The notes below the pieces were generated by a model that did no database searches, had not been told where the DNA came from, and saw only the letters and a program-made list of their open reading frames with translations. Positions 4,526 through 21,265 of a DNA stretch of 64,000 nt are shown one piece after another. Source of the DNA: Pseudodesulfovibrio sp. 5S69 (GTDB taxonomy: Bacteria; Desulfobacterota; Desulfovibrionia; Desulfovibrionales; Desulfovibrionaceae); the NCBI RefSeq assembly GCF_037094465.1, contig NZ_CP146609.1, positions 2,785,501-2,849,500 on the forward strand, in the 5' to 3' direction. Position 1 is the stretch's first letter, and each line of letters begins with the position of its first letter. The position numbers and the translations under genes were made by a program.

Positions 4526-4813
4526 ATGCTCAAAACGCTCGGAATTCTCGCCTGGGGCGGATGCCTGCTGACCCTGGCCTGGCAGGGAGCGGCCTGGGCC
4601 GTCACCGGGGCCTGGCCTTCCATAACCCTCATGGACGTCTTCGGCAAACTGTTCGGCCTCGACCTGCTCACCCTGGCCCGGCACCTCTCCCTGGATATCG
4701 CCGCCAAGGCCGCCTACATGCTCTTCACCACGGAACTGTCCCTTTTCCTGTGGTGGGCCGGGGTGGTCATGTTCGGTCTGATGTTCGCCCTCGGGCTCCT
4801 TGGCCGGAAATAA
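4526..4813 (+). CDS. Small two-helix membrane protein, unknown function
   Basis: A 95-residue protein with hydrophobic helices at about residues 3-25 (LGILAWGGCLLTLAWQG) and near the C-terminus (LFLWWAGVVMFGLMFALGLL). No family is recognised. Starts at 4526 or 4490 are both in frame and neither has a good ribosome site. An AT-rich TATATA block at 4511-4516 could be a -10 element that would make 4526 nearly leaderless. It lies upstream of the decaheme cytochrome/rnf operon and may or may not belong to it. Confidence 0.6.
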   Translation: MLKTLGILAWGGCLLTLAWQGAAWAVTGAWPSITLMDVFGKLFGLDLLTLARHLSLDIAAKAAYMLFTTELSLFLWWAGVVMFGLMFALGLLGRK

Positions 4814-4940
4814 ATTCGGCATTCCCTCATATCCGCCGGACAATAGCCAGCGTAACCCAAAAACCCCTTTAGGGTATGGACTAAACCCCACGGTTTCAGC
4901 TACAAGTTTGTATTCCGCTCCAAATCGTGAGGTCGACCCA

Positions 4941-5681
4941 TTGCAGAAACGGTATCTCCCCATCGCCATCGTGACCGGCATCCTTTTTCTCGTCGCCCTG
5001 GGCGGCTATCTGGCTCCCGCCGGCTCCGAAGGACCGCCGGTCCGGGTGCTCCTGGCGAACAAGGGTGGCAAGGTCATCCTGGACCACGCCCAGCATATCG
5101 ACGATATGGAGGGCCGCTGCGCCGACTGCCACCACACCTCGGGCAGCGACCCGAATCCGCCCGCCTGCTCCTCCTGCCACGCGGCCAAATTCGGCAAGGA
5201 TTTCGCCATATCGCACCAAGACACCATGGATGAGAAACAGTGCGGCTCCTGCCACCACGCCGGGGCGACCATCGGCAAATTCGCCCACGACGAACACGCC
5301 GACGACTACGCCTCAGGGGATTGTCAGACCTGCCACCACGACACGGACATCGAGCCGGAACCGCAGGCCTGCTCCAACTGCCACACGAACGGGGCCGACT
5401 CCCGCCCGAGCCTGCGCGATGCAGCCCACGCCCGGTGCGCGGACTGCCACGACGATATGTTCAAGGAAGGGGCCATCGGCTGCACCCGCTGCCACGAGCG
5501 CAAGACCGAACCGGCGTCCGAAGCGGACTACCAACCCTGCGCCGATTGCCATGCCTCGCCCACGGACCAGTTGATTCCGACCACCATGGCCGCCTTCCAT
5601 GCACAGTGCCAGGGATGCCACGAGAAGAACGGCTCCGGCCCGTACGGCGATGACGCCTGCTACCAATGCCATATGAAATAA
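4941..5681 (+). CDS. dhcA: Decaheme periplasmic c-type cytochrome of the Rnf operon (DhcA-like)
   Basis: Ten CxxCH haem-binding motifs (CADCH, CSSCH, CGSCH, CQTCH, CSNCH, CADCH, CTRCH, CADCH, CQGCH, CYQCH) make this a decaheme cytochrome. The N-terminus has a basic start and one hydrophobic helix (IAIVTGILFLVALGGYLA), so it is exported and probably membrane-anchored on the periplasmic side. A TTG start at 4941 with GAGGT 8 bp upstream gives 246 residues. An ATG at 4800 would add 47 unlikely residues and overlap the preceding gene. In Desulfovibrio a multihaem cytochrome gene is known to precede rnfCDGEAB, linking the Rnf complex to the periplasmic cytochrome pool. rnfC starts 14 bp downstream. 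Confidence 0.92.
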   Translation: MQKRYLPIAIVTGILFLVALGGYLAPAGSEGPPVRVLLANKGGKVILDHAQHIDDMEGRCADCHHTSGSDPNPPACSSCHAAKFGKDFAISHQDTMDEKQCGSCHHAGATIGKFAHDEHADDYASGDCQTCHHDTDIEPEPQACSNCHTNGADSRPSLRDAAHARCADCHDDMFKEGAIGCTRCHERKTEPASEADYQPCADCHASPTDQLIPTTMAAFHAQCQGCHEKNGSGPYGDDACYQCHMK

Positions 5682-5695
5682 GGGACCCCAGAACC

Positions 5696-6901
5696 ATGAG
5701 CGATTTCAACTTCAGCCTGCTGTGCGGCGAAACCGGGCCCCTGACCACGGCCTCCCGGCCGGACAGGCTGCGCCTTTCCCTGGACGGCACGACCCCGATC
5801 CTGGCCGTGGGCGACCAGGTCCTGGCGGGCACGAAAGTGGCCGTAGGCAACGGACCGGACAAGGGCGACCTGCACGCCCCCCTGGCCGGGATCATCCTCG
5901 AACTCGATCCCTACTCCATGCTCATCGAGATGGACAACGGCGGCAAGGCCGAGCCCCACACTCCCTGCGCCGAGGGAGGCGGGCTGCTCAGGCAGTGGCT
6001 CAAAACCATGGGCGTGGACGTGGGCGCCCTGTACCAGGCCCCCACCCTGATCATCAACGGGGTCCCGCCCGAGCCGGGCATCTCCGTGTTCGAGCCCTTG
6101 CTGCGCGACTACCGCAAGACCCTTGAGATGGGTCTGGAAACGATCCAGAAGGTCATCGAACCGGCCAAGATGTTCCTGGTGGCGGCCAAGGGCAACCGGG
6201 CCAACGCCTTTGCCAACTGCACCGTGGTCCACGTCAATCCGGTCTATCCCAACGGGCTGGACCCGCTGGTCTACAAGACGGTCCTCAGGCAGGAGGTCCT
6301 GCCCGGCGCGCGGCCGGACAACGCCACGCTCCTGTCGGTCAAGGATTTGTACGCCATCGGCCGGGTTATGGAGACGGGCCGCCCCCTGACCGAGACGGTC
6401 ATGACCATCGGCGGGCAGAACCGGCTGGTGCGCGTGGGCACGCCCGTGGGCTTTCTGGCCGCCGAGGCCTGTGCCCAGATCCAACCCGGAGACCGCGCGG
6501 TGCTGGGCGGCCCCCTGCGCGGCATGGCCGCGGTCAACCTGGAACAGGGCGTGGACAAGGACACCTACGGGCTGACCCTCATGCGCCGCGAGGCGAGCCT
6601 GGAGACCACCGACAATTTCTGCCTCGGCTGTGGAAACTGCGAACGCCACTGCCCGGCCCGGATCCTGCCCGGCATGATCAGCCGCTGCGCCGAATTCAAG
6701 CATTTCAAGCGGGCCGAGGCCTACCACATCCACTCCTGCATGGAGTGCGGTTTGTGCGGCTACTGGTGCACGGCCCGGCGTCCGCTGCTGCAGTACATCC
6801 GCCTGGCCAAGTACGAACTGGCCCTGCTGGCCGGAGCCCGCGTACCGGCCGGACCCACGGCCGATGAACTCAAGGAGCAGACCGGAGACACGCCATGCTG
6901 A
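5696..6901 (+). CDS. rnfC: RnfC subunit of the ion-translocating ferredoxin:acceptor oxidoreductase
   Basis: A 401-residue peripheral Rnf subunit. An N-terminal barrel-sandwich region (VGDQVLAGTKVAVG, HAPLAGIILE) is followed by the RnfC core (PTLIINGVPPEPG, NPVYPNGLDPLV, TVMTIGGQNRLVRVGTPVG, VLGGPLRG). Two complete CxxCxxCxxxC clusters follow (CLGCGNCERHC and CMECGLCGYWC) for two [4Fe-4S]. The acidic ECEPY-type motif that normally follows LIIN and contacts FMN/NADH is absent, and YPQGGE and GGPMMG are altered, so NADH oxidation at RnfC is doubtful. Its stop overlaps the rnfD start by 7 bp. Confidence 0.93.
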   Translation: MSDFNFSLLCGETGPLTTASRPDRLRLSLDGTTPILAVGDQVLAGTKVAVGNGPDKGDLHAPLAGIILELDPYSMLIEMDNGGKAEPHTPCAEGGGLLRQWLKTMGVDVGALYQAPTLIINGVPPEPGISVFEPLLRDYRKTLEMGLETIQKVIEPAKMFLVAAKGNRANAFANCTVVHVNPVYPNGLDPLVYKTVLRQEVLPGARPDNATLLSVKDLYAIGRVMETGRPLTETVMTIGGQNRLVRVGTPVGFLAAEACAQIQPGDRAVLGGPLRGMAAVNLEQGVDKDTYGLTLMRREASLETTDNFCLGCGNCERHCPARILPGMISRCAEFKHFKRAEAYHIHSCMECGLCGYWCTARRPLLQYIRLAKYELALLAGARVPAGPTADELKEQTGDTPC

Positions 6902-7875
6902 AGCCGCTCAATCCCATCCTGACCGTGGCCGTCCCGCCGCACGTGCACTGCGGGCGGTCCATCCGGCGCTACATGGTCGACACCCTGATCGCGCTCATGC
7001 CCGCCGCCCTCATGGCCGTGGTCGTCTTCCGCGTGGAGGCGCTCCGGGTCATGGCCCTGTCCTGCGCCGTGGCCGTGGCCGCAGAGTTTCTGCTCAACCG
7101 GATCATGCGCCGCGAGCAGTCCGTGGACGACTACAGCGCGCTGGTCACCGGCCTGCTGTTCGCCTTCCTGCTCCCGGCATCGAGCCCGTGGTGGCTGGTG
7201 GTCGTCGGTTCGTTCGCCGCCATCGCCCTGGGAAAGATGATCTTCGGCGGCCTGGGCGGCAGCCCGCTCTGTCCGGCCCTGGTGGGCTGGGCCGCGTGCC
7301 GCATCTCCTGGGGGAGCTACATGGATACCAACGCGACCATGCTCTCCTCCCACCTGGCCGCGCCCCTGCAGCAGCTCAAGTATTTCGGGCTGGACGCCAT
7401 CGGCTCCATCCACTACCCCGACCTGCTCCTGGGCAATCAGCTCGGCGGACTGGGTGCCGTGCACGTGGCCGCGCTGCTGGTGGGCGCCGCCTACCTGCTC
7501 CTGCGCGGCCACATCAAATGGGAGGTCCCGGCCGGATTCATCGCGGGCCTGCTGCTGGCCGCCTGGGTCTACCGGCTCATGGACCCCACGGTCTACGCCC
7601 CGCCCCTGTTCCACCTGCTGGCGGGCGGCGCGATCTTCGGAGCCTTCTTTCTGGCCACGGACCCGTCCTCCAGTCCCATCGGACGGCTGCCCGCCATTCT
7701 CTTCGGGCTCATGGCCGGGGCCATGGTCGTCATCATCCGGGTGTACGGCATGTATCCGGACGGCGTGCCTTTCGCCATCCTGCTGGCCAACCTGTTCACC
7801 CCGCTGCTCGACCGCATCCGGCCCAAACCGTTCGGTGGCCCCTACTCCTTCCAAAGCGGCACGGAGGGCGCGTAA
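6895..7875 (+). CDS. rnfD: RnfD integral membrane subunit
   Basis: A 326-residue polytopic protein with RnfD/NqrB hallmarks: DDYSALVTGLLFAFLLP, IALGKMIFGGLGGSPLCPAL, the C-terminal ATDPSSSPIGRLP, and MYPDGVPFAILLANLFTPLLDRIRPK. Members carry FMN covalently on a Thr in an SGATPL motif. The aligned place here reads SSHLAAPLQQLK (nt 7345-7380), with Ala in place of the Thr, so covalent flavin attachment looks lost. Predicted helices number about eight or nine. Translation is coupled to rnfC by overlap and to rnfG, whose ATG directly follows the stop. Confidence 0.93.
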   Translation: MLKPLNPILTVAVPPHVHCGRSIRRYMVDTLIALMPAALMAVVVFRVEALRVMALSCAVAVAAEFLLNRIMRREQSVDDYSALVTGLLFAFLLPASSPWWLVVVGSFAAIALGKMIFGGLGGSPLCPALVGWAACRISWGSYMDTNATMLSSHLAAPLQQLKYFGLDAIGSIHYPDLLLGNQLGGLGAVHVAALLVGAAYLLLRGHIKWEVPAGFIAGLLLAAWVYRLMDPTVYAPPLFHLLAGGAIFGAFFLATDPSSSPIGRLPAILFGLMAGAMVVIIRVYGMYPDGVPFAILLANLFTPLLDRIRPKPFGGPYSFQSGTEGA

Positions 7876-8454
7876 ATGAAGGGAATGATCAAGATGGTCG
7901 TGGTCCTGTCGCTCTTCTGCGGCCTGTCCGGCCTGACCCTGGCCACGGTGCGCCAGGCCACGTCCAAACGCATCGAAGACCAGGTCATGACTTACGTGCA
8001 GGGCCCTGCCCTGGCCCAGATCTTCACCGGCTACGACAACAACCCGGTCAAGGACCGCAAGACCTTCGACCTGCCGGACGGTCCGGTGACCGTGTTCCCG
8101 GCCATGAAGGACGGCAAACTCATAGGCGTGGCCTTCGAGACCTTCGGCAAGGGATTCGGCGGCCCGGTGGGCATCATGGTCGGCTTCAACACCGACGGCA
8201 CCAAGCTGGCGGGCATCGGCACGACCACGCTCAAGGAAACGCCCGGCCTGGGCATGCGCCTGGTGGAGCCCGAGTACCGCGACCAGTTCCGGGGCCACAC
8301 CACCAAGTCCGTGGCCCTGACCAAGAACGGCGGCGACATCGCGGCCATCGCCGGGGCGACCATCTCGTCCACGGGCAGCGTGGCCGCGGTCAACCAGGCG
8401 ATCAAGATTTTCCAACAGATCAAGGACAAGATCCACGCCACGTGGACCTCGTAA
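7876..8454 (+). CDS. rnfG: RnfG FMN-binding periplasmic subunit
   Basis: A 192-residue protein with one N-terminal membrane anchor (IKMVVVLSLFCGLSGLTLA) and an FMN-binding domain (VGIMVGFNTDGTKLAGIG, TLKETPGLGMRL). The Thr that would accept FMN is in IAGATISS, but the Asp expected six residues before it in the ApbE recognition motif (DxxSGAT) is Ala here. The flavinylation enzyme ApbE, adjacent to rnf in several genomes, is not found in this window. The gene starts directly after rnfD and is followed 14 bp later by rnfE. Confidence 0.92.
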   Translation: MKGMIKMVVVLSLFCGLSGLTLATVRQATSKRIEDQVMTYVQGPALAQIFTGYDNNPVKDRKTFDLPDGPVTVFPAMKDGKLIGVAFETFGKGFGGPVGIMVGFNTDGTKLAGIGTTTLKETPGLGMRLVEPEYRDQFRGHTTKSVALTKNGGDIAAIAGATISSTGSVAAVNQAIKIFQQIKDKIHATWTS

Positions 8455-8468
8455 GCCAAGGTAGTCAC

Positions 8469-9146
8469 ATGAGCACATTGTGGAAGGAATTCTCGAAGGG
8501 ACTGTGGCACGACCTGCCGCCGTTCAAGCTTGTTCTGGGGCTGTGTCCCACCCTGGCCGTGACCAAGACCGCCTACAACGGCTTCGGCATGGGCATGGCC
8601 GTCATCTTCGTCCTGGCCCTGTCCAACATGCTGATCTCCATGCTGCGCAAGGTCATCCCGAGCAAGGTGCGCATCGCCTGCTTCATCGTGGTCGCCGCCT
8701 CGCTGGTGGTCTGCGTGGAGCTGCTCATGCAGGCCTATGCCTATCCGCTGTACCAGCAGCTCGGCATCTTCGTACCGCTGATCGTGGTCAACTGCATCAT
8801 CTTGGGTCGGGCCGAGGCCTTCGCCTCCAAGAACCCGGTCCTGCTGTCCGTGGCCGACGGCCTGGGCATGGGCATGGGTTTCACCCTGTCCCTGACCTTT
8901 CTCGGCTCCCTGCGCGAGCTGTTCGGCTACGGCACGTGGTTCGGCATGCACGTCATGGGCGGCTGGTTCAAACCCTTCGGCTTCATGGTCGAGGCCCCGG
9001 GCGCGTTCGTCTGCCTGGGCGTGCTGCTCGCGGGCATGAACGCCCTGACCAACTGGCAGCGGAAGACCAAGGGACTGGAGGCCGTCGAGGGCCCGGTCCA
9101 CGACTGCAAGACCTGCGGCATGTGCGCCAGCAAACCGAGGATGTGA
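8469..9146 (+). CDS. rnfE: RnfE integral membrane subunit with Cys-rich tail
   Basis: A 225-residue NqrD/RnfE-family membrane protein. The conserved Cys in LGLCPTLAVTKT (C26) and the second in NCIILGRAEAFA are the pair thought to hold the intramembrane iron-sulfur centre together with RnfA. About six hydrophobic helices are visible. The C-terminus carries an extension HDCKTCGMCASKP with a CxxCxxC pattern, not usual for RnfE, which could bind metal or an Fe-S cluster or form disulfides. It is separated by 2 bp from the following extra gene. Confidence 0.93.
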   Translation: MSTLWKEFSKGLWHDLPPFKLVLGLCPTLAVTKTAYNGFGMGMAVIFVLALSNMLISMLRKVIPSKVRIACFIVVAASLVVCVELLMQAYAYPLYQQLGIFVPLIVVNCIILGRAEAFASKNPVLLSVADGLGMGMGFTLSLTFLGSLRELFGYGTWFGMHVMGGWFKPFGFMVEAPGAFVCLGVLLAGMNALTNWQRKTKGLEAVEGPVHDCKTCGMCASKPRM

Positions 9147-9148
9147 CC

Positions 9149-9658
9149 ATGAAACGACGGCTCATGCTTCCGCTCCTGGCCCTCTCGCTGATCCTGGCCG
9201 CGTCCCCGGCCCTGGCCCAACGCCCGACCGACGAGAGCATGATGAACATGCTCAAGGCCTCGGGCACCGTGGAAACGATCCAGGCGATGATTTCCAAACT
9301 TCTCGCCCGGACCCAGGCGAATCTGCAGGCACGTCTCCCCAACCTGCCGGACAAGGCGGTCCGGATAGTGAACGAGGAGATGCACAACGGCGTCCAGGAC
9401 ATCATCAGGGAAATACTGGCCAAGCAGATGGCCTTTTTCGCCGACCATATGACCCAGAAGGACGTGGACGACCTGATCGAGCTCTACAATTCCCCGGCCT
9501 GGAAGAAGCAGGTCGAGGTCTCCAGGCTCTACGTGGCCTCGGAATACGGCAAGATGCTGCGGGACGACGTCCCGCGCATGACCAAGGAAATGATCTCCCG
9601 CATCCTCTCCCGGCTGAAGGCCGAGGGGTATCTCGATAAAAAGGACGAGGGCATATAA
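9149..9658 (+). CDS. Secreted helical protein inserted in the rnf operon (DUF2059-like)
   Basis: A 169-residue protein with a signal peptide (MKRRLMLPLLALSLILAASP, cleavage after ALA-Q about residue 24). The rest is helical and soluble (FFADHMTQKDVDDLIELYNS, PAWKKQVEVSRLY). This matches the feel of DUF2059 proteins, which have a helix pair with 'Y.S..F' near the end. It begins 2 bp after rnfE, and its stop TAA overlaps the ATG of rnfA, so it is translationally integrated. In the usual rnfCDGEAB order nothing sits between E and A. A periplasmic assembly or accessory factor for Rnf is a reasonable inference, unproven. Confidence 0.82.
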   Translation: MKRRLMLPLLALSLILAASPALAQRPTDESMMNMLKASGTVETIQAMISKLLARTQANLQARLPNLPDKAVRIVNEEMHNGVQDIIREILAKQMAFFADHMTQKDVDDLIELYNSPAWKKQVEVSRLYVASEYGKMLRDDVPRMTKEMISRILSRLKAEGYLDKKDEGI

Positions 9659-10233
9659 TGGACTACTTCGTACTCGTCATCGCCGCCATCTTCGTCAACA
9701 ACATCGTGTTGGCGCAGTATCTGGGCAACTGCCCGTTCATCGGCACGTCCAAGGAGTCGGGCGTGGCGCTCGGCATGGGGCTGGCTGTGGTCTTCGTGGC
9801 TACCCTGGCCGCGGTTATCACATGGTGCGTCCAGGAGTACCTGCTTGCGCCCAACGACCTCGACTATCTCCAGACCATCGCCTTCATCCTGGTCATCGCC
9901 GCCCTGGTCCAGTTCGTGGAGATGTTCCTGAAAAAGGCCATCCCGCCGCTGTACAAGTCGCTCGGCATCTTCCTGCCGCTGATCACCACCAACTGCGCGG
10001 TGCTCGGCATCGCCATCATCTGCCAGCGCGAGGAATTCGGCCTGCTCCAGACCTTCCTCTTCTCCATGGCCTCGGGCGTGGGCTTCATGCTCGCATTGGT
10101 GCTCCTGGCGGGCATCCGCGAGCGGCTGGACCTGGCCCGCGTACCCATGGCCATGCGGGGCACCCCGCTCGGCCTGGTCATGGCCGGGTTGATGTCCCTG
10201 GCCTTCTTCGCCTTCAAGGGCATGGCATCCTAG
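9658..10233 (+). CDS. rnfA: RnfA integral membrane subunit
   Basis: A 191-residue NqrE/RnfA-family protein with about six transmembrane helices. The conserved cysteines are C25 in LGNCPFIGTSKESG and C113 in TTNCAVLGIA; with the RnfE pair these are the proposed ligands of an intramembrane [2Fe-2S] centre. Length and motifs are normal for the family, in contrast to RnfB, RnfC and RnfD. It is coupled to the upstream extra gene by a TAATG overlap. rnfB follows after 12 bp. Confidence 0.95.
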   Translation: MDYFVLVIAAIFVNNIVLAQYLGNCPFIGTSKESGVALGMGLAVVFVATLAAVITWCVQEYLLAPNDLDYLQTIAFILVIAALVQFVEMFLKKAIPPLYKSLGIFLPLITTNCAVLGIAIICQREEFGLLQTFLFSMASGVGFMLALVLLAGIRERLDLARVPMAMRGTPLGLVMAGLMSLAFFAFKGMAS

Positions 10234-10245
10234 GAGTAAGACGCT

Positions 10246-12348
10246 ATGATCACCGCTTCCGTACTCATCCTCCTCGGCATCGGGTTCACCTCCGCCGTCA
10301 TCCTGGCGGTGGCCTCCAAGCTGCTCTACGTCTATGAGGACCCGCGCATCGCGCAGGTGGAGAACGTGCTGGCCGGAGCCAACTGCGGCGGATGCGGTTA
10401 TCCCGGTTGCGCCGGAGCCGCCCAGGGCGTGGTCGAGGGCAAGGCCGGGGCCACGGTCTGCGTGGTCGGCGGCGATGCGGTGGCCGAAAAGGTGGCCGCC
10501 ATCATGGGCCTGGAGTTCTCATCAATGGAAAAGCAGATCGCCTTTGTCGACTGCACCGGCGGCATCCGGGCCGAAGAGGTCTACAGGTACGCCGGGGTCA
10601 AGGACTGCCGCGCCCAGCACATGCTCTACAACGGCTCCAAGATGTGCCCCGAAGGCTGCCTCGGATTCGGGACCTGCATCACGGCCTGCCAGTTCGGAGC
10701 CATCGAGATGGGGCCCAACGGCTACCCCGTGGTGGACCCCAACCTGTGCACCGCCTGCGGCGGCTGCGAGCAGGTCTGCCCGCGCGGCGTAATCACGGTC
10801 TGGGGCATGACCGCGCGCATCACCCACCTGAACCTCGAAACCGACTGCCTGGCCCCGTGCCGCCAACGGTGCCCGGGCCAGATCAACATCCCCCGCTACA
10901 TCGAACAGGTCTCCCGCGGCGACTACGCCGGGGCCCTGGAGACCATCCGCGAGCGCATCCCCATGCCCCTGTCCATCGGCCGGGTCTGCCCGCACCCCTG
11001 CGAGGGTGTCTGCCGCCGGGGCCGCGTGGACGAGCCGGTGGGCATCAACATGATCAAACGTTTCGCGGCGGACTGGGAGATGAACTCCGGGACCCGCCTG
11101 CCCATCTCCTGCGCCCCGGACACCGGACGCAAGGTGGCCGTGGTCGGCGGCGGCCCCGCCGGGCTGTCCTGCGCCTTCTTTCTGCGCCGTCTGGGCCACA
11201 GCCCGACCATCTTCGAGTCCATGCCCAAGCTGGGTGGTCAACTGCGCTACGGCATCCCGGAATACCGGCTGCCCAAGGCCGTGCTGGACTGGGAGATCCA
11301 GGGCATCCTGGACCTGGGCATCGACGTGCGCTTCGAACAGTTTTTCGGCAAGGACTTCACCCTGGACACCCTGCGCGAGGAGGGCTTCGAGGCCGTGTTC
11401 CTCGGCATCGGGGCGTGGATGAACATGAATCTGCGCATCGAGAACGAGGACGCCGAGGGCGTCTCCACGGGCACCGAGTTCCTGACCAAGGTGGGCCTTG
11501 GCGTGGAGAGCGGCACCGGCAAGAAGGTCGTGGTCGTGGGCGGCGGCAACACCGCCATCGACGCGGCCCGGACCAGCGTGCGCCTGGGCGCGGACGTGAC
11601 CCTCATGTACCGCCGTACCCGCGACGAGATGCCCGCCAACATGGAAGAGATCATCGGGGCCGAGGAGGAAGGCGTCAAATACCTCTTCCTGGCCGCGCCC
11701 ACGCGCATCGTCAAGGACGGCGACGGCCGCGTGACCCACATCGAGTACATCAAGATGGAATTGGGTGAGCCGGACCAGTCCGGGCGCCGCCGCCCCATCC
11801 CCATCGAGGGCTCCGAGACGCTCATCGAGGCGGACACCGTGTACACGGCCATCGGACAGAAGCCCGAGCTGTCCTGCCTCTACGAGGACGGCGTGTGCCA
11901 GTTGGAGGAGACGCGCTGGCGCACCCTAGCCGCCGATCCCGACACCCTGCAGACGGCCATGCCGCACGTCTTCACCGGCGGCGACATGCACACCGGCCCG
12001 GCCCTGGTCATCACCGCCCTGGGCGAGGGCCGCAAGGCCGCCCGGTCCATCCACCAGTACCTCAACGGCGAGCCGCCGCACGTGGACGCGCGCACCCAGC
12101 GTGACATGATCCCCTACACCATGTTCACCGATGTGCCCAACGTGGGCTACCGGGAGCGGTCCGAGATGCCTCATCTGATAGAGTGCGACGAACGCGCCTG
12201 CACCTTCGGCGAGATCGAAGGCGCGCTCAGCGAAGCCCAGGCCAAACGCGAGACGTGCCGCTGCCTGCGTTGCGGGCTGACCTGCTATAACCGCGACATG
12301 GTCGACGGCCAGGAGTGCGCCGATGGGGATTGCGTCAAAAATCAGTAA
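10246..12348 (+). CDS. rnfB: RnfB fused to a GltD/NfnB-like FAD-NAD(P)H oxidoreductase module
   Basis: A 700-residue protein. Residues 1-25 are a membrane anchor; then comes the RnfB Fe-S domain (ANCGGCGYPGCAG) and a two-cluster ferredoxin domain (CPEGCLGFGTC, CTACGGCEQVC) to about residue 185. From about 205 it continues as a glutamate-synthase small-subunit-like protein: N-terminal Fe-S cysteines (CLAPCRQRC, CPHPCEGVC), an FAD motif VAVVGGGPAG at 296, an NAD(P)H motif VVVVGGGNTA at 427, MYRRTRDEMPA, and a C-terminal FAD motif FTGGD. The tail has extra Cys (CRCLRCGLTC). Ordinary RnfB is about 190-330 residues. The fusion is in one uninterrupted frame, so this is not an assembly artefact visible at the sequence level. 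Confidence 0.93.
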   Translation: MITASVLILLGIGFTSAVILAVASKLLYVYEDPRIAQVENVLAGANCGGCGYPGCAGAAQGVVEGKAGATVCVVGGDAVAEKVAAIMGLEFSSMEKQIAFVDCTGGIRAEEVYRYAGVKDCRAQHMLYNGSKMCPEGCLGFGTCITACQFGAIEMGPNGYPVVDPNLCTACGGCEQVCPRGVITVWGMTARITHLNLETDCLAPCRQRCPGQINIPRYIEQVSRGDYAGALETIRERIPMPLSIGRVCPHPCEGVCRRGRVDEPVGINMIKRFAADWEMNSGTRLPISCAPDTGRKVAVVGGGPAGLSCAFFLRRLGHSPTIFESMPKLGGQLRYGIPEYRLPKAVLDWEIQGILDLGIDVRFEQFFGKDFTLDTLREEGFEAVFLGIGAWMNMNLRIENEDAEGVSTGTEFLTKVGLGVESGTGKKVVVVGGGNTAIDAARTSVRLGADVTLMYRRTRDEMPANMEEIIGAEEEGVKYLFLAAPTRIVKDGDGRVTHIEYIKMELGEPDQSGRRRPIPIEGSETLIEADTVYTAIGQKPELSCLYEDGVCQLEETRWRTLAADPDTLQTAMPHVFTGGDMHTGPALVITALGEGRKAARSIHQYLNGEPPHVDARTQRDMIPYTMFTDVPNVGYRERSEMPHLIECDERACTFGEIEGALSEAQAKRETCRCLRCGLTCYNRDMVDGQECADGDCVKNQ

Positions 12349-15429: not shown

Positions 15430-15493
15430 ATTATGCCGATGTAAACATAATATATTGTTTTTTTTGACATTAATTTTGAAAACGGGGTATGAA
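15430..15493 (+). promoter_or_regulatory. aor promoter with upstream inverted repeat
   Basis: TTGACA at 15464-15469 and TATGAA at 15488-15493 with 18 bp between form a plausible promoter. Immediately upstream, ATTATG (15430-15435) and CATAAT (15446-15451) form an inverted repeat with a 10-bp centre, a possible activator or ModE-type binding site serving aor and the divergent gene. Confidence 0.45.
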
Positions 15494-15566
15494 AAGACAG
15501 TTAGTCCGTTTATCGACAATGCGTCAAGAGGGACGCTCAATTCCAAAAAAGACTGAGGGTGAATCA

Positions 15567-17294
15567 ATGTCAAAAATTTTGCGAATCAACTGTCGGACAA
15601 AGGAATACACTTACGAGGACGCCGGTCCCTACGTCGGCCTTGGCGGCCGCGCCCTGACCTCCAGGGTCATCAACAAGGAAGTCCCGGCCACCTGCCATCC
15701 CCTGTCCGCCGAAAACAAACTGGTTTTCGCCACCGGCCTGATGGGCGGTTCCACCGCTGCCAACTCCGGCCGTCTGTCCGTGGGCACCAAGTCCCCCCTG
15801 ACCGGCGGCATCAAGGAGTCCAACTCCGGCGGCCTGTTCGCCCACAAGATGCCCAAGATGGGCCTCAAGGCCATCATTCTCGAGGACAAGCCCGCCGAAG
15901 ATGCGCCCTTCTCCACCCTGTTCATCACCGAGGACAAGGTCGAATTTCGCGACGCCTCCGACATCAGCGGCCTGGACACCTACCCCGGCCATGACAAACT
16001 TCTGGCCCAGTACGGCGACAAGCTCTGCGCGGCCATGATCGGCCCCGCCGGCGAGACTCTGCGCAAGACCGCCACCATCCAGTTCACCGACCCATACAAA
16101 CGGCCCGCCCGCTCGGCCGGTCGCGGCGGCACCGGCGCGGTCCTCGGCTCCAAGAAGATCAAGGCCATCGTCCTCGACCCCGCGGTCAACGTGAAGGTCT
16201 CGGCCGCCGACATGGACGCCTTCAAGCAGGCCCGCTCCACCTGGGTCTCCATCCTCAAGGGCCACCCCGTCACGTCCCAGGGCCTGCCCGCCTACGGCAC
16301 CTCCGTGCTGGTCAACATCATCAACGAGGCGGGCGCCATGCCCACCAAGAACTTCCGCTACGGCCAGTGCGAGCACGCCGCCGAGATCTCCGGCGAAAAA
16401 ATCGCCGACCTGATCAAGGAGCGCGGCGGCAAGACCACCGAGGGTTGCCACACCGGCTGCATCATCCAGTGCTCCCAGCAGTACAACGACGCCGACGGCA
16501 ACTACGTGACCTCCGGCTTCGAGTACGAAACCGTCTGGGCCCTGGGCGCCAACTCCCTGATCAAAGACCTCGACGACATCGCCCTCATGGACCGCATCTG
16601 CGACGAAAAGGGCATGGACACCATCGAGATCGGCAACACCGTGGCCGTGGCCATGGACGGCGGTATCATCCCCTGGGGTGACGGCAAGGCCGCCATCGAA
16701 CTGCTCAAGAAGGTCGGCACCAACGATCCCCTGGGCATGATCATCGGCAACGGCGTGGACTTCGCCGGCGGGGCCTTCGGCGTGGAACGCCTGCCCACCG
16801 TCAAAGGCCAGTCCATGCCCGCCTACGACCCGCGCGCCGTCAAGGGCGTGGGCGTGACCTACGCCACCACCCCCATGGGTGCCGACCACACCGCCGGTTA
16901 CGGCGTCACCGCTAACTGCCTGGGCGTGGGCGGCACCATCGACGGCCACAAGAAGGAAGGCAACGTCGAGCTGTCCAAGAATCTCCAGGTGGCCACCGCC
17001 GCCATCGACTCCATGGGCTTCTGCCTGTTCGTGGCCTTCGCGGTCCTGGATTCCGAGAACGGCGTCCAGACCATGGCCGACCTGGTCCAGTCCTGGACCG
17101 GCAACGCCTTCTCCGTGGACGACCTGGTCGCCCTGGGCGCCGGCGCCTTGCAGGACGAACTGGACTTCAACGAGCGCGCGGGCTTCTCCAAGATCGACGA
17201 CCAACTGCCCCGCTTCTTCGAGACCGACCCCCTGCCGCCTCACAACGTCACCTGGGATTACACCGTGGATGAGCTCCAGGACGCCAAGGTCTAA
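15567..17294 (+). CDS. aor: Aldehyde:ferredoxin oxidoreductase (tungsten bis-pyranopterin enzyme)
   Basis: A 575-residue AOR-family enzyme: N-terminal GLGGRALTSRVINKEVP, cofactor-contact motif GRGGTGAVLGSKKIKAI (about residues 190-206), cluster cysteines C294, C298 and C302 in EGCHTGCIIQC, and a late Cys C486 in SMGFCLFVAF. Spacing C-x3-C-x3-C rather than the C-x2-C-x3-C of archaeal AOR recalls YdhV-type members. The family oxidises aldehydes to acids, passing electrons to ferredoxin. The start at 15567 follows GAGGGTG. Downstream MoaD/MoeB-like genes and tupABC provide cofactor and tungstate, which supports tungsten rather than molybdenum. Confidence 0.93.
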   Translation: MSKILRINCRTKEYTYEDAGPYVGLGGRALTSRVINKEVPATCHPLSAENKLVFATGLMGGSTAANSGRLSVGTKSPLTGGIKESNSGGLFAHKMPKMGLKAIILEDKPAEDAPFSTLFITEDKVEFRDASDISGLDTYPGHDKLLAQYGDKLCAAMIGPAGETLRKTATIQFTDPYKRPARSAGRGGTGAVLGSKKIKAIVLDPAVNVKVSAADMDAFKQARSTWVSILKGHPVTSQGLPAYGTSVLVNIINEAGAMPTKNFRYGQCEHAAEISGEKIADLIKERGGKTTEGCHTGCIIQCSQQYNDADGNYVTSGFEYETVWALGANSLIKDLDDIALMDRICDEKGMDTIEIGNTVAVAMDGGIIPWGDGKAAIELLKKVGTNDPLGMIIGNGVDFAGGAFGVERLPTVKGQSMPAYDPRAVKGVGVTYATTPMGADHTAGYGVTANCLGVGGTIDGHKKEGNVELSKNLQVATAAIDSMGFCLFVAFAVLDSENGVQTMADLVQSWTGNAFSVDDLVALGAGALQDELDFNERAGFSKIDDQLPRFFETDPLPPHNVTWDYTVDELQDAKV

Positions 17295-17318
17295 CCACCG
17301 CATCAACCTAAACGACAT

Positions 17319-17349
17319 GGGCCGGGGAATGTTCCCCGGCCCCTTTTTT
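17319..17349 (+). terminator. Rho-independent terminator after aor
   Basis: Stem GGGCCGGGGAA (17319-17329) folding on TTCCCCGGCCC (17332-17342) followed by a T-run at 17344-17349. It separates aor from the MoaD-like gene, which must be reached by readthrough or its own promoter. Confidence 0.85.
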
Positions 17350-17387
17350 GGTTGACCCCCGCACCCCAAACCACCTAGGTTCATGCC

Positions 17388-17615
17388 ATGGGAATAGAAC
17401 TCAAATGTTTTGCTACCCTGAGGGATTACCTGCCGGAAAACAGCGACGACTACCCCGTTGAACCGGGCGAGACCATCCGCTCCCTGGTGATCCGGCTCGG
17501 CATCCCGGAGAAGGACGTGACCATCATGTTCATCAATTCCCGGTTCTCCACTCTGGACAGCGAGATCAAGGACGGCGACCGCGTAGGACTGTTTCCCCCG
17601 GTGGGCGGAGGCTAG
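17388..17615 (+). CDS. MoaD/ThiS-like sulfur carrier protein
   Basis: A 75-residue beta-grasp protein with strands IELKCFATLRDYL and VTIMFINSRFS, an acidic turn EIKDGDRVGLFPPV and the essential C-terminal GlyGly (ends GGG). In MoaD the terminal Gly is adenylated, then thiocarboxylated, to deliver sulfur to the pterin dithiolene. Its place between aor and a MoeB-like gene points to a carrier devoted to the tungsten cofactor. No ribosome site precedes ATG 17388. A possible promoter (TTGACC 17352-17357, TAGGTT 17376-17381, 18-bp spacer) would start transcription almost at the ATG, so it may be leaderless. Confidence 0.9.
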   Translation: MGIELKCFATLRDYLPENSDDYPVEPGETIRSLVIRLGIPEKDVTIMFINSRFSTLDSEIKDGDRVGLFPPVGGG

Positions 17616-17619
17616 TCCC

Positions 17620-18456
17620 TTGGGCGCCTCCCTCGAAGAATCCATCCGGCGCCTGGCCCGACCCCGCACCCTGCCCTGGGGCGGCACCGGAGCGGTCCTG
17701 GACGTGAGCGACGTGACCGCACTGGCCGAAGAATACGGCCTGCCCGGTCACGAGATCGAGGCCCTTGCCCTGAGCCAGGACGTCACACCAGCCCGCTACC
17801 TGCGCAACCGGCAATCCGTCTCCCGCGAGGACCAGATCCGTCTGCTGCGGGCAAGCGTCGCCATGGTCGGGCTCGGCGGCCTGGGCGGATCCCTGCTGGA
17901 GCAGTTCCTGCGCCTGGGCATCGGCCGCGTGCGCGCGGCGGACGGCGACCGGTTCGAGGCCTCCAACCTGAACCGCCAGGCCCTGTCAAGCCTGGACGGA
18001 CTCGGCCGCGACAAGGCCCGTGCCGCCAGGCTGCGGGCCGATGAAATCAACCCCTCGATCACGCTGGAAACGCACTCGGAATTTCTCGCCGACGAGACCC
18101 TGCCGGGCTTTCTCGACGGCTGCGCGCTGGCCGTGGACGCCCTGGGCGGCCTGACCATGCGAGGCCATCTGCAACGGGCCGCGGCCGGGGCGGGCATCCC
18201 CCTGGTCACCGGAGCCCTGGCCGGATGGACCGGCTATGTGGCCGTGGTTATGCCGGGGCAGACCGGCCCGGCGGACCTCATGGGCACGGACAACGGTGCC
18301 GAGGAGCGCCTCGGCTGCCCCGCGCCGGCCGTGAACCTGGTGGCCTCGCTCATGGCCCTGGAGGTCGTCAACGTCCTGACCGGCGCGCCGACCTTGGCCG
18401 GGCGGATGCTTGTCACGGACCTGCGTTCGTACACATTCGAGACCATTTCGCTCTGA
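17620..18456 (+). CDS. MoeB/ThiF/HesA-family adenylyltransferase
   Basis: A 278-residue E1-like enzyme. The ATP-binding loop is GLGGLGGSLLEQFL (about residues 85-98), followed by acidic ADGDRFEASNLNRQ (the Asp and Arg contact ATP), and an AVDALGGLTMR region corresponds to the catalytic-Asp strand. It has an unusual N-terminal 65 residues and lacks the paired CxxC zinc ligands of E. coli MoeB. It should activate the MoaD-like carrier encoded just upstream. Start TTG 17620 with GGAG 9 bp upstream; 4 bp after the moaD-like stop. Confidence 0.9.
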   Translation: MGASLEESIRRLARPRTLPWGGTGAVLDVSDVTALAEEYGLPGHEIEALALSQDVTPARYLRNRQSVSREDQIRLLRASVAMVGLGGLGGSLLEQFLRLGIGRVRAADGDRFEASNLNRQALSSLDGLGRDKARAARLRADEINPSITLETHSEFLADETLPGFLDGCALAVDALGGLTMRGHLQRAAAGAGIPLVTGALAGWTGYVAVVMPGQTGPADLMGTDNGAEERLGCPAPAVNLVASLMALEVVNVLTGAPTLAGRMLVTDLRSYTFETISL

Positions 18457-18489
18457 TTTGGTGTCAAGCCTGACCCCATTATGTTTTCA

Positions 18490-18519
18490 TTGACGTAATT
18501 CAAAAAAATCGTCTATTTT
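18490..18519 (+). promoter_or_regulatory. Putative promoter of the ModE-like/tup genes
   Basis: TTGACG at 18490-18495 and TATTTT at 18514-18519 with 18 bp between, in an AT-rich patch after the MoeB-like gene. A transcript from here would have a leader of about 60 nt before the ModE-like start at 18589. Confidence 0.5.
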
Positions 18520-18588
18520 ATTCACTTGGTAGAATATCTTTCCGAAATCGGTTCCACTTTCTTTGATCTGAGAACTCCGAGGTACCTC

Positions 18589-18975
18589 ATGAAACGAAAC
18601 CCCGAAACCATCCTGAGACTGCGCGTCTGGCTCGAACAAGAGGACCAAACCTACATAGGCATCGGCAGCACCCTGTTGCTCCAGCAAGTGGAAAAACTGG
18701 GATCGTTACGCAAGGCGGCTGAAGCCTTGGGCATGTCCTACAGGCGGGCATGGGGCAAGTTGAAGAACGCCGAAGAACGCATAGGCAAACCCCTGGTGGA
18801 GAAGACCAAGGGTAAGGGCCAGCGCTTCAACCTCTCGCCCTATGGCCGCGAAGTCATGGAGAAATTCCTGCATTTCTACTTGGATGTAGAGGAATACGCC
18901 ACCAAGCGCGCCACGGAACTGCTCGAAATGGACGTCAAGAAATCCGGCGAATTCTACCGGGACGACATGGAATAA
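18589..18975 (+). CDS. ModE-type winged-helix regulator without molybdate-binding domain
   Basis: A 128-residue protein matching only the N-terminal DNA-binding half of ModE: IGIGSTLLLQQVEKLGSLRK, AAEALGMSYRRAWGKLKNAE, KTKGKGQRFNLSPYGREVM. The C-terminal MOP/TOBE domains that sense molybdate or tungstate are missing; the last 25 residues are helical and acidic. GAGGT precedes ATG 18589. Its position directly before tupA suggests it controls tungstate uptake and possibly aor. How it would sense metal is unclear. It is not the Xer-like TunR regulator type described in sulfate reducers. Confidence 0.85.
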   Translation: MKRNPETILRLRVWLEQEDQTYIGIGSTLLLQQVEKLGSLRKAAEALGMSYRRAWGKLKNAEERIGKPLVEKTKGKGQRFNLSPYGREVMEKFLHFYLDVEEYATKRATELLEMDVKKSGEFYRDDME

Positions 18976-19028
18976 ATCCTCATCTTGTTTGAGGACTGCG
19001 GATACAACTGTTCATCATTGGAGGAAAA

Positions 19029-19853
19029 ATGAAACGTTTGCTTATCGCCGCCCTGTCCTGCCTCATCGTCATGGTCATGGCCCTGCCCGCGCTGGCCGGC
19101 CCGACCCTGATGATGGCCACCACCACCAGCACCGCCAACACCGGCCTGCTGGACGAACTGATCGTTCCCAAATTCCTGAAAGATACCGGAATCGAGATCA
19201 AATTCGTGGCCGTGGGCACCGGCAAGGCCCTCAAAATGGCCGAGAACTGCGACGTAGACGTTGTCCTGGTCCATGCTCCGGCCGCTGAAAAGGCTTACGT
19301 GGACAAGGGCGTGCTCGTTGACCGCAAGGAACTCATGTACAACGACTTCGTCATCATCGGACCGGCCTCCGACCCGGCGGGCATCAAGGGCATGGACGTG
19401 GCCGACGCCCTGAAGACCATCGCCCGGAAGCAGGCCGTGTTCGCCAGCCGCGGCGACAACTCCGGCACCAACAAGAAGGAGCTCTCCCTGTGGAAGGCAG
19501 CCGGCATGGCCGTGCCCGAAAAGGACGCTTGGTACATCCAGACCGGCCAGGGCATGCTCCCGACCATCAACATCGCCAACGAAAAGAACGGCTACACCAT
19601 GACCGACCGCGGCACCTACATCAAGTATGCGGACACCAAGGGCGGCAACCCGCCGCTGGTGGTCCTGGTCGAAGGCGACAAAGTCCTGTTCAATCAGTAC
19701 AGCGCCCTGGCCGTGAACACCGCCAAATGCAAGGATGCCCAGTACGACCTGGCCACCAAATTCATCAACTGGATGGCCTCTCCGGACACCCAGAAGGCCA
19801 TCGGCAACTTCAAGCTGCTTGGCAAGAAGCTGTTTATCCCCAACGCCAAATAG
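19029..19853 (+). CDS. tupA: Tungstate ABC transporter substrate-binding protein TupA
   Basis: A 274-residue periplasmic binding protein with a signal peptide (KRLLIAALSCLIVMVMALPALA). It carries the oxyanion-binding TTTSTANTGLLDELIVPKF start of the mature protein, typical of TupA/WtpA-like rather than ModA proteins, plus FASRGDNSGTNKKE and NGYTMTDRGTYI. TupA binds tungstate with high selectivity. GGAGGAAA ribosome site at proper distance. A strong hairpin after the gene probably raises the level of the binding protein relative to the permease and ATPase. Confidence 0.92.
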   Translation: MKRLLIAALSCLIVMVMALPALAGPTLMMATTTSTANTGLLDELIVPKFLKDTGIEIKFVAVGTGKALKMAENCDVDVVLVHAPAAEKAYVDKGVLVDRKELMYNDFVIIGPASDPAGIKGMDVADALKTIARKQAVFASRGDNSGTNKKELSLWKAAGMAVPEKDAWYIQTGQGMLPTINIANEKNGYTMTDRGTYIKYADTKGGNPPLVVLVEGDKVLFNQYSALAVNTAKCKDAQYDLATKFINWMASPDTQKAIGNFKLLGKKLFIPNAK

Positions 19854-19871
19854 GACCGCACGTCTGACTCG

Positions 19872-19908
19872 ACGGGGGAGGGAGGCGGCAACTCTCTCCC
19901 CCGTTTTT
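19872..19908 (+). terminator. Hairpin/attenuator between tupA and tupB
   Basis: CGGGGGAGGGA and TCTCTCCCCCG arms with a short loop, followed by TTTTT. Located in the 66-bp gap inside tupABC, it likely stops part of the transcripts, giving more TupA than TupB/TupC, as is common in ABC importer operons. Confidence 0.75.
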
Positions 19909-19919
19909 GCGAGATTACC

Positions 19920-20615
19920 ATGGAATATCTGCTTGAAGGCTTCCGGCAGGGGATTTTACTCCTCTTCTCGGGCGATCCAGAGGCCTATTCCGCCATTTGG
20001 GCCACGGTCTACGCCTCGACTCTGTCCATGATCTGCAGCATGGCCATAGGCGTGCCCCTGGGCTTCCTGCTCGGCTACAAGGAATTTCCCGGGAAGAAGG
20101 TCGTCCGCACCATTGTGGATACCCTGCTCTCCTTCCCCACCGTGGTCATCGGGCTGGTGGTCTACGCCTTCCTGACCCGCAACGGCCCTCTGGGCGGCAC
20201 CGGCCTGCTCTTCACCATCCCCGGCATGGCCATCGGCCAGACCCTGCTCGGCCTGCCGATCATCGTGGCCATGACCGCCAATGCAGTGGAGTCACTGGAC
20301 AAACGGCTGCCCATGACCCTGATCACGCTCGGCGCCAGCCCCGCTCAGATGATGTGGGCCACGGTCCTCGAAGCCCGCTACTCGATAATGCTCGCGGCCA
20401 TGGCCGCCTACGGGCGCATCGTTTCCGAGGTGGGCATCTCCATGATGGTCGGCGGCAACATCAAGTGGCACACCCGGACCATCACCACGGCCATCGCACT
20501 GGAGACCGGCAAGGGCGAATTCGCCGTGGGCATCGCCCTGGGCATGGTCCTCCTGGCCGTGGCCCTGCTGGTCAACATCGGGGCCGCGGGCCTCAAAAGG
20601 CGGGCCGTCCAATGA
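19920..20615 (+). CDS. tupB: Tungstate ABC transporter permease TupB
   Basis: A 231-residue inner-membrane permease with six hydrophobic helices. The EAA-like cytoplasmic loop reads ITLGASPAQMMWATVLEARY, the docking site for the ATPase, and it ends with LVNIGAAGLKRR. The sequence is of the TupB/ModB class. Its last codons overlap the start of tupC by 4 bp, so the two are translationally coupled. Confidence 0.92.
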   Translation: MEYLLEGFRQGILLLFSGDPEAYSAIWATVYASTLSMICSMAIGVPLGFLLGYKEFPGKKVVRTIVDTLLSFPTVVIGLVVYAFLTRNGPLGGTGLLFTIPGMAIGQTLLGLPIIVAMTANAVESLDKRLPMTLITLGASPAQMMWATVLEARYSIMLAAMAAYGRIVSEVGISMMVGGNIKWHTRTITTAIALETGKGEFAVGIALGMVLLAVALLVNIGAAGLKRRAVQ

Positions 20616-21265
20616 CCTCGCCGCTGATCGCCCTCGACAACGTCCGGCAGCGCTATTCGGAACGAACCGTCCTGGACATCGAACACCTGGAGTTCGGGGA
20701 AGGAACCATCACCGGCCTGGCCGGTCCCAACGGCTCGGGCAAGTCCACCCTGCTCCGCCTGCTCGCCTTCCTGGAACCCCCGGCAAAGGGAACCATCACT
20801 TTTCTCGGCCAACCCGCTTCGGCCAAATCCACCGTGAACCGGCAGGTCACCCTGCTGGTCCAGGAACCCTACCTGCTCAAGCGCACGGTCTTCGCCAACG
20901 TGGCCTACGGCCTGCGGATCCGCAGCAAGAACGACATCCCGTCCAAGGTGGCCCGCGCCCTGGAGGTCGTCGGCCTCGACCCCGCAGTCTTCGCCAAACG
21001 GCAGTGGTTCGAGCTGTCCGGCGGCGAGGTGCAGCGAGTGGCTCTGGCAGCCCGGCTGGTTCTCAAGCCCAAGCTCCTGCTCATGGACGAGCCCACGGCC
21101 AGCCTGGACGCCAAGAGCGCCGAGCTGATCCATCAGGCCGCCCTGTCCGCCCGCGATGAATACGGCGCGGCCCTGATCGTGGCCAGCCATGACATGACCT
21201 GGCTCGAAGCGGTCACCGACCACATCCATTATCTCGAAAACGGCCGCCTGGTGCGGACCGTCTAA
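20612..21265 (+). CDS. tupC: Tungstate ABC transporter ATPase TupC
   Basis: A 217-residue ABC ATPase: Walker A GPNGSGKSTLLRLL, Q-loop LLVQEPYLLKRTVF, signature LSGGEVQRVALAARL, Walker B LLLMDEPTASLD and switch His in ASHDMTWLEA. It is short, without the C-terminal TOBE domain of ModC, as is usual for TupC. It drives tungstate import with TupA and TupB. Followed 15 bp later by the MobB-like gene. Confidence 0.93.
   Translation: MTSPLIALDNVRQRYSERTVLDIEHLEFGEGTITGLAGPNGSGKSTLLRLLAFLEPPAKGTITFLGQPASAKSTVNRQVTLLVQEPYLLKRTVFANVAYGLRIRSKNDIPSKVARALEVVGLDPAVFAKRQWFELSGGEVQRVALAARLVLKPKLLLMDEPTASLDAKSAELIHQAALSARDEYGAALIVASHDMTWLEAVTDHIHYLENGRLVRTV

Follow-up and report, generated by a model that had tools for sequence, protein, structure and literature searches.

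An RnfB–GltD fusion in rnf operons that lack the RnfC FMN/NADH loop and the RnfD flavinylation motif

Results

The window analyzed here is a stretch of 64,000 nucleotides from the genome of Pseudodesulfovibrio sp. 5S69 (assembly GCF_037094465.1, contig NZ_CP146609.1, positions 2,785,501 to 2,849,500 of the forward strand), and positions below are those of the window. It carries an rnf operon whose last gene, at 10246–12348, encodes an RnfB protein fused to a GltD-type oxidoreductase module. We find that the fusion is a conserved family, that in the rnf operons examined it occurs only together with an RnfC from which the glycine loop for flavin mononucleotide (FMN) and NADH is missing, and that RnfD of the same lineage has lost its flavinylation motif. 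The parts of the fused gene are as follows:

10246..12348, + strand: rnfB-gltD fusion, 700 amino acids (aa) in one frame
10246..10815, + strand: RnfB part, residues 1–190, with membrane anchor, FeS domain (GANCGGC) and ferredoxin dicluster
10834..11094, + strand: GltD-type N-terminal Fe-S domain (Fer4_20), with cysteines 201, 205, 209, 248, 252 and 256
11122..12075, + strand: flavin adenine dinucleotide (FAD) and NADPH-type Rossmann domains, with GGGPAGL at 301–307, GGGNTA from 432 and YRR from 455
12076..12345, + strand: C-terminal tail with C-x2-C-x3-C, cysteines 673, 676 and 680

The original prediction, of one continuous frame of 700 codons joining RnfB to a GltD/NfnB-like module, is borne out. 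The frame opens with the ATG at 10246, closes with the stop that ends at 12348 and has no stop in between. Moreover, 119 of the 120 homologues listed (the best 120 of 6245) are 690–716 aa long and 61–93% identical over 97–100% of the query, the closest named one among them being that of Pseudodesulfovibrio mercurii (93%). The open frame and the same length, within a few residues, in 119/120 of these homologues rule out a frameshift, a chimera or an assembly artefact.

That the RnfB part would be a normal one holds for the anchor, the FeS domain and one ferredoxin dicluster, but not for the C-terminus. Pfam FeS (residues 42–73) and Fer4 (161–184) match above their cut-offs, and the NCBIfam RnfB models match inside residues 1–196, none of them reaching its curated cut-off. 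The unfused RnfB sequences inspected carry a second ferredoxin dicluster beyond residue ~195, at the C-terminus where canonical Rnf has it; in the fusion the GltD module occupies that place and no such dicluster is found. Accordingly, the strict motif CxxCxxCxxxC occurs once in the RnfB of 44/44 fused operons, two or three times in 34/35 unfused operons with a loopless RnfC, and in canonical RnfB once in 13/33 and more often in 20/33.

The second part, residues 199–681, is a module of the StnC/NfnB/GltD type in which the FAD and NADPH-type motifs are intact and follow Fer4_20 in order; we take YRR to be the NADPH mark of the GltD/NfnB family. Pfam Fer4_20 (202–282) and Pyr_redox_2 (296–595) match above cut-off, and the top NCBIfam model, PRK12771, covers 197–684 at 1.4e-149 with 499 bits, slightly below its cut-off of 516. 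The expectation of complete N-terminal Fe-S, FAD and NAD(P)H motifs thus stands for the last two; the start of Fer4_20, in the NfnB sense, is missing. The match covers positions 29–112 of the 113 of the profile, its first positions being unmatched, and alignments to the NfnABC and StnC chains of the PDB likewise begin past the first part of Fer4_20. An AlphaFold2 model built from 76 sequences is confident (mean predicted local distance difference test 89.5, predicted template modelling score 0.85). Its top solved folds in Foldseek are NfnABC of Caldicellulosiruptor, NfnABC of Thermococcus and StnABC of Sporomusa, in agreement with the sequence search of the PDB; both by sequence and by fold, NfnABC and StnC rank above NfnB. 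Among 54 fused proteins aligned, the tail cysteines 673, 676 and 680 are unchanged in 54/54, and so is R341, the arginine of an IPEYRLPK stretch and perhaps the equivalent of NfnB R201. Motifs of the GltD part were scored by alignment columns; strict regular expressions gave undercounts.

The operon and its genome

All six subunits of the Rnf core, RnfA, B, C, D, E and G, are encoded in one operon, in the order cytochrome c, rnfC, D, G, E, a small DUF2059-like protein, rnfA and rnfB-gltD:

4800..5681, + strand: multiheme c-type cytochrome with 10 CxxCH motifs, head of the operon
5666..6901, + strand: rnfC, 411 aa, RnfC fold and two 4Fe-4S motifs kept
6008..6043, + strand: site in rnfC of the missing FMN/NADH glycine loop (GMGGAGFPTHVK in canonical rows), a 14-column alignment gap
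6895..7875, + strand: rnfD, 326 aa
7345..7368, + strand: SSHLAAPL in rnfD at the flavinylation-motif site (canonical S-S-A-T-P-L), threonine lost
7876..8454, + strand: rnfG, 192 aa, FMN_bind, above the cut-off of NCBIfam RnfG_DVU2794
8350..8373, + strand: covalent-FMN motif AGATISST in rnfG, kept
8469..9146, + strand: rnfE, with both cysteines expected to hold the membrane 2Fe-2S cluster together with RnfA
9149..9658, + strand: small protein between rnfE and rnfA, 169 aa, signal-like N-terminus, weakly DUF2059-like (below the Pfam cut-off)
9658..10233, + strand: rnfA, both cluster cysteines kept

The cytochrome frame is listed from its first TTG, and the real start may lie further in. It has one hydrophobic stretch, near residue 53, and all its heme motifs come later (107–287), so that the protein is probably membrane-anchored with its hemes in the periplasm. 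RnfE ends in a cysteine-rich tail with CKTCGMC (9105–9146). The operon does not have the make-up of Na+-NQR, in which an NqrF-type NADH module is present and RnfB absent. No NfnA-like gene was found among the operon's genes by the list of open reading frames and the domain search; an Nfn-type pair, a DHODB-like NAD-binding protein adjoining a GltA-type protein, lies elsewhere in the genome (L011).

The genome (4.16 Mb in one contig) holds three rnf operons, all with a fused RnfB. The other two copies are 63% (L009) and 48% (L010) identical to that of the window, and in the one at L010:12941-15055 the NADPH motif is degenerate and the cytochrome frame upstream is short. The sole ApbE-type gene found in the genome, at C1:1292146-1292967, is far from the operon. 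Further along the window, 15489–21265 holds what we take to be an aldehyde ferredoxin oxidoreductase-like frame followed by ThiF-like, ModE-like and tungstate-type transporter frames.

Loss of flavin motifs in RnfC and RnfD

RnfC of the window has no match to Complex1_51K, the FMN-binding domain, which a canonical RnfC of the same family matches at 8.8e-54. The original prediction had proposed comparing fused RnfB with the motifs of rnfC, and this was done at 121 rnf loci with genes called by tblastn-anchored frames, the DNA being GC-rich. The family Desulfovibrionaceae contributed 20 chosen fused loci, the three of this genome and 23 chosen unfused loci. Fused loci outside the family came from two sources: 20 were chosen from the phylum search for the fusion (10 with a readable rnf operon, 9 outside rnf operons, and L065, which lacks its RnfC), and 11 more were met through lower-scoring RnfC matches. 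From the RnfC matches listed, 60 were fetched (28 high, 32 lower); the other listed matches include further rows of these families. The 33 loop-bearing loci are five from the family above the cut-off and 28 chosen from RnfC matches of more than 480 bits. Four RnfC-like loci with no rnf operon (L058–L061) were left out; two start at profile position 112–117 and two end at 354–355.

The fusion was seen with loopless RnfC only. The glycine loop is missing in 44/44 fused operons and none of the 33 loop-bearing, canonical operons is fused (0/33), so that the classes are 44 fused and loopless, 33 unfused and loopless, 33 unfused with the loop and none fused with the loop. Of the other loci, five have no RnfB in the stretch (L133, L136, L141, L142 and L144) and six, cut by contig ends, stand outside these classes (L118, L126, L130, L132, L139 and L143; in L139, whose operon is cut, the visible RnfB lies on the opposite strand). 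The trees and the tables of motif columns, upstream cytochromes and RnfD motifs use the first labels, with 35 loopless unfused loci (L118 and L139 included) and nine with no RnfB. That the fusion by itself explains the loss of the loop is ruled out, because the 33 unfused loopless operons (23 of the family and 10 others) have lost it as well. The canonical operons of the family (L053–L057) come from 5 of 199 genomes above the cut-off; their rnfA frames are unusually long (309–491 aa), possibly a calling artefact.

A tree of RnfA and RnfD (121 rows) unites the 44 fused rows with 38 other loopless rows (of 44) in a clade of 82 members, support 100; the 33 loop-bearing rows and the remaining six loopless ones lie apart from it. 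Within this clade the RnfD flavinylation-type motif D-x-x-[ST]-x-A-T is found in 0/82 rows, as compared with 28/33 canonical rows and 6/6 of the loopless group outside it. The threonine of S-[SG]-A-T-P-L gives the same picture: it is present in 32/33 loop-bearing rows (one gap) and in 6/6 of that group, and in the clade in 4/44 fused, 0/30 unfused and 0/8 RnfB-less rows. The four fused rows that have it (L077, L119, L120 and L121) show an altered motif context. In a separate set of named loci, the best 80 of 111, the RnfD column is never threonine in the 77 with a readable RnfD; all 80 are loopless (18 fused, 45 unfused, 15 without RnfB and 2 cut), which is not independent, given that they were fetched with a loopless RnfC profile. 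The motifs of the other subunits are kept: both RnfA and both RnfE cysteines in 44/44 fused operons, and the covalent-FMN threonine of RnfG in 43/44, with Ser in one. Judged by these motifs, the ion-pumping half of Rnf is intact in the clade and the return arm to NAD is dismantled.

The six loopless loci outside the clade (L122, L124, L125, L127, L129 and L132) have an unfused RnfB in five cases, L132 being cut by a contig end. Because they lie outside the clade, keep the RnfD motif and lack an upstream cytochrome (0/5 readable), their loop loss looks like an independent event.

We scored as an upstream cytochrome any frame with at least three CxxCH motifs no more than 1.6 kb upstream of rnfC. 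Such a multiheme gene lies directly upstream of rnfC in 67/81 readable loci of the clade and in 0/31 canonical loci. In the family it is found in 23/23 fused and 23/23 unfused loci; elsewhere in 11/20 fused loci, and in 4/7 and 6/8 of the others.

Distribution, trees and subtypes

How widespread the fusion is in the Desulfovibrionaceae had been left as a question. It is common there, with full-length fused proteins in at least 48 of 199 sampled genomes and in 17/17 of the genus. In the genome search, which covered one phylum, they were found in 42/395 sampled genomes at E ≤ 1e-130 (own genome included), and copies within rnf operons reach 13 families in the tree of RnfA and RnfD. The fusion is thus a conserved family.

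In that tree the 46 family rows form one clade (100), and the 23 unfused rows are a subclade (98) nested among the fused ones. The RnfB tree, made from residues 1–190 of 100 of 112 sequences (42/44 fused; 12 were dropped because the anchor motif was not found in the called frame), groups the 42 fused proteins in a clade of 43 (95), the odd member being L118, which is cut by a contig end. There, the RnfBs of the 23 unfused family loci cluster together with seven from canonical operons (99), contradicting the tree of the core. Replacement of the RnfB head in the unfused family lineage would give just such a conflict. Both trees are quick ones from which neither root nor direction was inferred.

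Three subtypes can be told apart among the 44 fused proteins of rnf operons. The first (28/44, with the window and L009 among them) keeps GGGNTA and YRR; the second (8/44, L010 among them) has GDTNTA-like loops without YRR; and in the third (8/44) the FAD loop is altered (GGGAEGL) and the nucleotide site degenerate. The degenerate motifs in 16/44 rule out that every fused protein binds NADPH and, since the third paralogue of this genome is of the second subtype, its three Rnf complexes need not share a donor.

Fused genes also occur outside rnf operons. At L081:765-5729 and L084:777-5879 they adjoin NuoF-like and NuoE-like genes and, in L081, an RseC-like gene (domains assigned by Pfam for L081, by frame order and inspection for L084); NuoF may supply NADH there, because the nucleotide site of the fused protein itself is degenerate. 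For seven others (L067, L068, L070, L071, L072, L075 and L083) no rnf gene was found in the stretch. An rnfC match is present elsewhere in the genomes of the first six, and that of L083 also holds a fused rnf operon (L077). Five genomes (G271, G303, G331, G381 and G357) gave ferredoxin-GltD matches that start at residue 98–99 (46 in G331), in frames of ~600 aa (901 in G331) apparently without the RnfB anchor; in two of them, G303 (L114) and G331 (L115), an unfused RnfB accompanies a loopless rnfC.

Discussion

The path described for Acetobacterium woodii, in the accessible text of PMC11889175, runs from RnfB through the RnfA/E cluster to the FMN of RnfG, on to the FMN and riboflavin of RnfD, the clusters and then the FMN of RnfC, and finally to NAD+. 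The route is U-shaped; ions are pumped at RnfA/E, whereas RnfD takes part in electron transfer alone. Ferredoxin is presumed to dock close to the B1–B2 clusters of RnfB, the mobile C-terminal region of which is likened to a fishing hook for it (PMC11889175). In the clade defined here the motifs of this path are kept as far as RnfG, but those of the next and the last flavin are missing, and the simplest outcome would be an exit at RnfG to a periplasmic cytochrome. We therefore lean, if by no great measure, towards a reading in which the operon encodes an ion-coupled NAD(P)H:cytochrome c oxidoreductase and not a ferredoxin:NAD+ oxidoreductase. NADPH would reduce the FAD of the GltD module, from which single electrons would travel through the Fe-S clusters of the module to the ferredoxin domain and then the membrane-proximal FeS domain of RnfB. 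They would cross the membrane by the RnfA/E 2Fe-2S cluster, coupled to ion movement, arrive at the FMN of RnfG and pass to the periplasmic cytochrome, because the return route through RnfD and RnfC would be broken. The path might also be reversed, the ion gradient driving formation of NADPH from the periplasmic cytochrome pool with electrons from H2 or formate. RnfB may be regarded as an exchangeable input head, the unfused Desulfovibrionaceae carrying a ferredoxin-type RnfB on the same core.

A pyridine-nucleotide site on the ferredoxin subunit had been foreseen in the original prediction, and an NADPH-type site is supported by motifs, families and fold. It is not, however, an addition to an otherwise normal Rnf, because RnfC of the operon has lost the FMN/NADH loop and RnfD the flavinylation motif. 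The GltD site is the sole recognizable pyridine-nucleotide site remaining among the genes of the operon.

Several observations weigh against an exit at RnfG fed by NADPH. Both 4Fe-4S motifs of RnfC are kept in 121/121 loci, which is odd for a dead arm, and a dhcA gene lies in the rnf operon of Desulfovibrio alaskensis G20. The losses in RnfC and RnfD fall on the same branch and so amount to one event, not to repeated evidence. The loss in RnfD is itself not clean: a looser S/T-x-A-T occurs somewhere in the protein in 15/82 clade rows (29/33 canonical rows) and S/T-x-A-T-P in 2/82, both off the site, and candidates for the riboflavin site are only partly lost, the ATD position, which on our own reading may be that site, being D or E in 44/44 fused operons. 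The second cysteine column of RnfE is an imperfect control, because among the 33 canonical rows it holds C in 21 and A in 11. The association with a cytochrome is incomplete as well: outside the family, no multiheme gene lies upstream in 9 of the 20 fused operons for which that DNA could be read, and four canonical loci (L091, L095, L104 and L106) carry multiheme frames elsewhere in the stretch. Lastly, the 16/44 fused proteins in which the NADPH motif is degenerate include the third paralogue of this same genome.

The conserved RnfC clusters and the dhcA of D. alaskensis leave room for an Rnf in which the sites are swapped, that is, an ion-coupled NADPH:ferredoxin oxidoreductase in which NAD(P)H would enter at RnfB and electrons would return via the riboflavin of RnfD to the clusters of RnfC, there to serve a one-electron carrier such as ferredoxin. 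The RnfC fold is kept along with its clusters, loss of the FMN fits a one-electron partner, and the fused operons with no cytochrome gene upstream would be accounted for. In such a complex, however, RnfG would have to reach the riboflavin without the covalent FMN of RnfD, the motif for which is gone throughout the clade, and the cytochrome gene present in most of its loci argues against it too; we consider this arrangement unlikely.

Less probable still, in our view, is a ferredoxin:NAD(P)+ oxidoreductase whose NAD(P) end is the GltD module instead of RnfC, with both substrates meeting on RnfB and the membrane part idle or bypassed. Ferredoxin clusters and the GltD FAD do share one chain, and in Nfn electrons pass between ferredoxin and the NfnB-type module (PMC10482914, in its accessible part). 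Such an enzyme would not be ion-coupled, and an idle pump leaves the conservation of the RnfA/E cysteines and the RnfG flavin motifs unexplained; moreover, the fusion has no second ferredoxin domain, which is the portion on the docking side. A third alternative, in which the losses in RnfC and RnfD are real and the GltD module is a regulatory or structural relic, would suit the fused proteins with a degenerate NADPH motif, but the larger subtype, to which the window belongs, has GGGNTA and YRR intact, and we regard a relic as very improbable. The Nfn-like bifurcation at the FAD of RnfB that was suggested at the outset, with one electron going to ferredoxin and one into the membrane, seems the least probable of all: the module is homologous to NfnB and R341 is invariant, but NfnABC and StnC outrank NfnB, the FAD of StnC is described as non-bifurcating although the arginine is kept (PMC10482914, accessible part), and the operon has no NfnA-like gene, the Nfn-type pair being separate.

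The Rnf of sulfate reducers has been treated as a ferredoxin:NAD+ (or NADH:ferredoxin) oxidoreductase, and the role of NAD(P)H in Desulfovibrio has been called a long-standing mystery (accessible parts of PMC4215793, PMC7922080 and PMC4287179 for the former, and PMC4215793 for the latter). If the NAD site of RnfC is indeed gone lineage-wide, the ferredoxin:NAD+ assignment fails as drawn and models of energy conservation change. A direct pump from NADPH to cytochrome would then be a candidate for the missing link, and a single fluorescent flavin band (RnfG), not two, is predicted. We would also propose, more tentatively, that a second class of Rnf, found in no fewer than 13 families of a single phylum, has given up the U-shaped return to NAD. 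It would pump ions as electrons run straight through from carriers in the cytoplasm to cytochromes in the periplasm, and its RnfB heads would be interchangeable, taking NADPH (GltD), ferredoxin or, by way of the NuoEF pair of a separate operon, NADH. The Desulfovibrio-lineage Rnf, for long described as a ferredoxin:NAD+ oxidoreductase, would be a member, and NAD(P)H would thereby gain its road to the cytochrome pool.

Parts of this picture have been anticipated. That Rnf links the cytochrome pool to NAD(P)H or ferredoxin is an earlier idea drawn from gene order. The accessible text of PMC4287179 (2014) repeats the hypothesis that the cytochrome of the rnf operon of D. gigas ties the cytochromes of the periplasm to NAD(P)H/ferredoxin in the cytoplasm, and the motif losses and the fused head make the idea concrete. 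For Desulfotignum, rnfCDGEA and a cytochrome are reported, with B not listed (PMC4046663, accessible part). Loss of rnfB together with an FAD-dependent oxidoreductase has been reported in many Desulfovibrionaceae (PMC11434368, 2024, accessible part); the gene so read is the fusion, with the RnfB part at its N-terminus. The accessible parts of PMC11434368 and PMC4287179 do not mention the losses in RnfC and RnfD, and in a literature search that was not exhaustive and reached papers in part we recognized no description of an RnfB-GltD fusion as such or of these losses in bacteria. What appears to be new here is the recognition that the fusion keeps RnfB, together with the coupled motif losses in RnfC and RnfD, and these point, on balance, to an Rnf variant with a surprising wiring.

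Comparison with known systems

With the canonical Rnf of A. woodii and Clostridium tetanomorphum the window operon shares the six subunits, the RnfB clusters, the RnfA/E cysteines, the RnfG flavin motif and the RnfC fold. It differs in lacking the FMN/NADH loop of RnfC and the covalent-FMN motif of RnfD, in having a GltD module in place of the second ferredoxin domain of RnfB, and in its ten-heme cytochrome. A precedent for the exit of electrons at RnfG to a cytochrome is the Rnf of Methanosarcina acetivorans, which is co-transcribed with a cytochrome c and reportedly does not interact with NAD(P), its chain being proposed to run from RnfG to cytochrome c as the last step; there, however, the electrons come from ferredoxin, and no GltD head is described in the accessible part of the source (PMC4023990). 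RnfC of M. acetivorans, used as a control, scores above the TIGR01945 cut-off.

The nearest relatives of the GltD module by sequence and fold, StnC (StnABC), NfnABC and NfnB, belong to transhydrogenases, whereas the module of the window sits on a membrane-anchored RnfB with no bifurcating partner gene in the operon. StnC is described as a linear conduit from NADPH through FAD to Fe-S clusters (PMC10482914, accessible part).

A parallel to the rewiring itself is Na+-NQR, proposed to be an Rnf that lost RnfB and the NAD and FMN sites of RnfC (NqrA) and gained NqrF (Reyes-Prieto 2014, PMC4014512, accessible part). In both, the RnfC flavin was lost and a pyridine-nucleotide module gained, which would make the present clade a second case of an Rnf rewired in this manner. 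Na+-NQR, however, reduces quinone and no longer has RnfB or the RnfC clusters, whereas the clade described here keeps both and carries its new module fused to RnfB.

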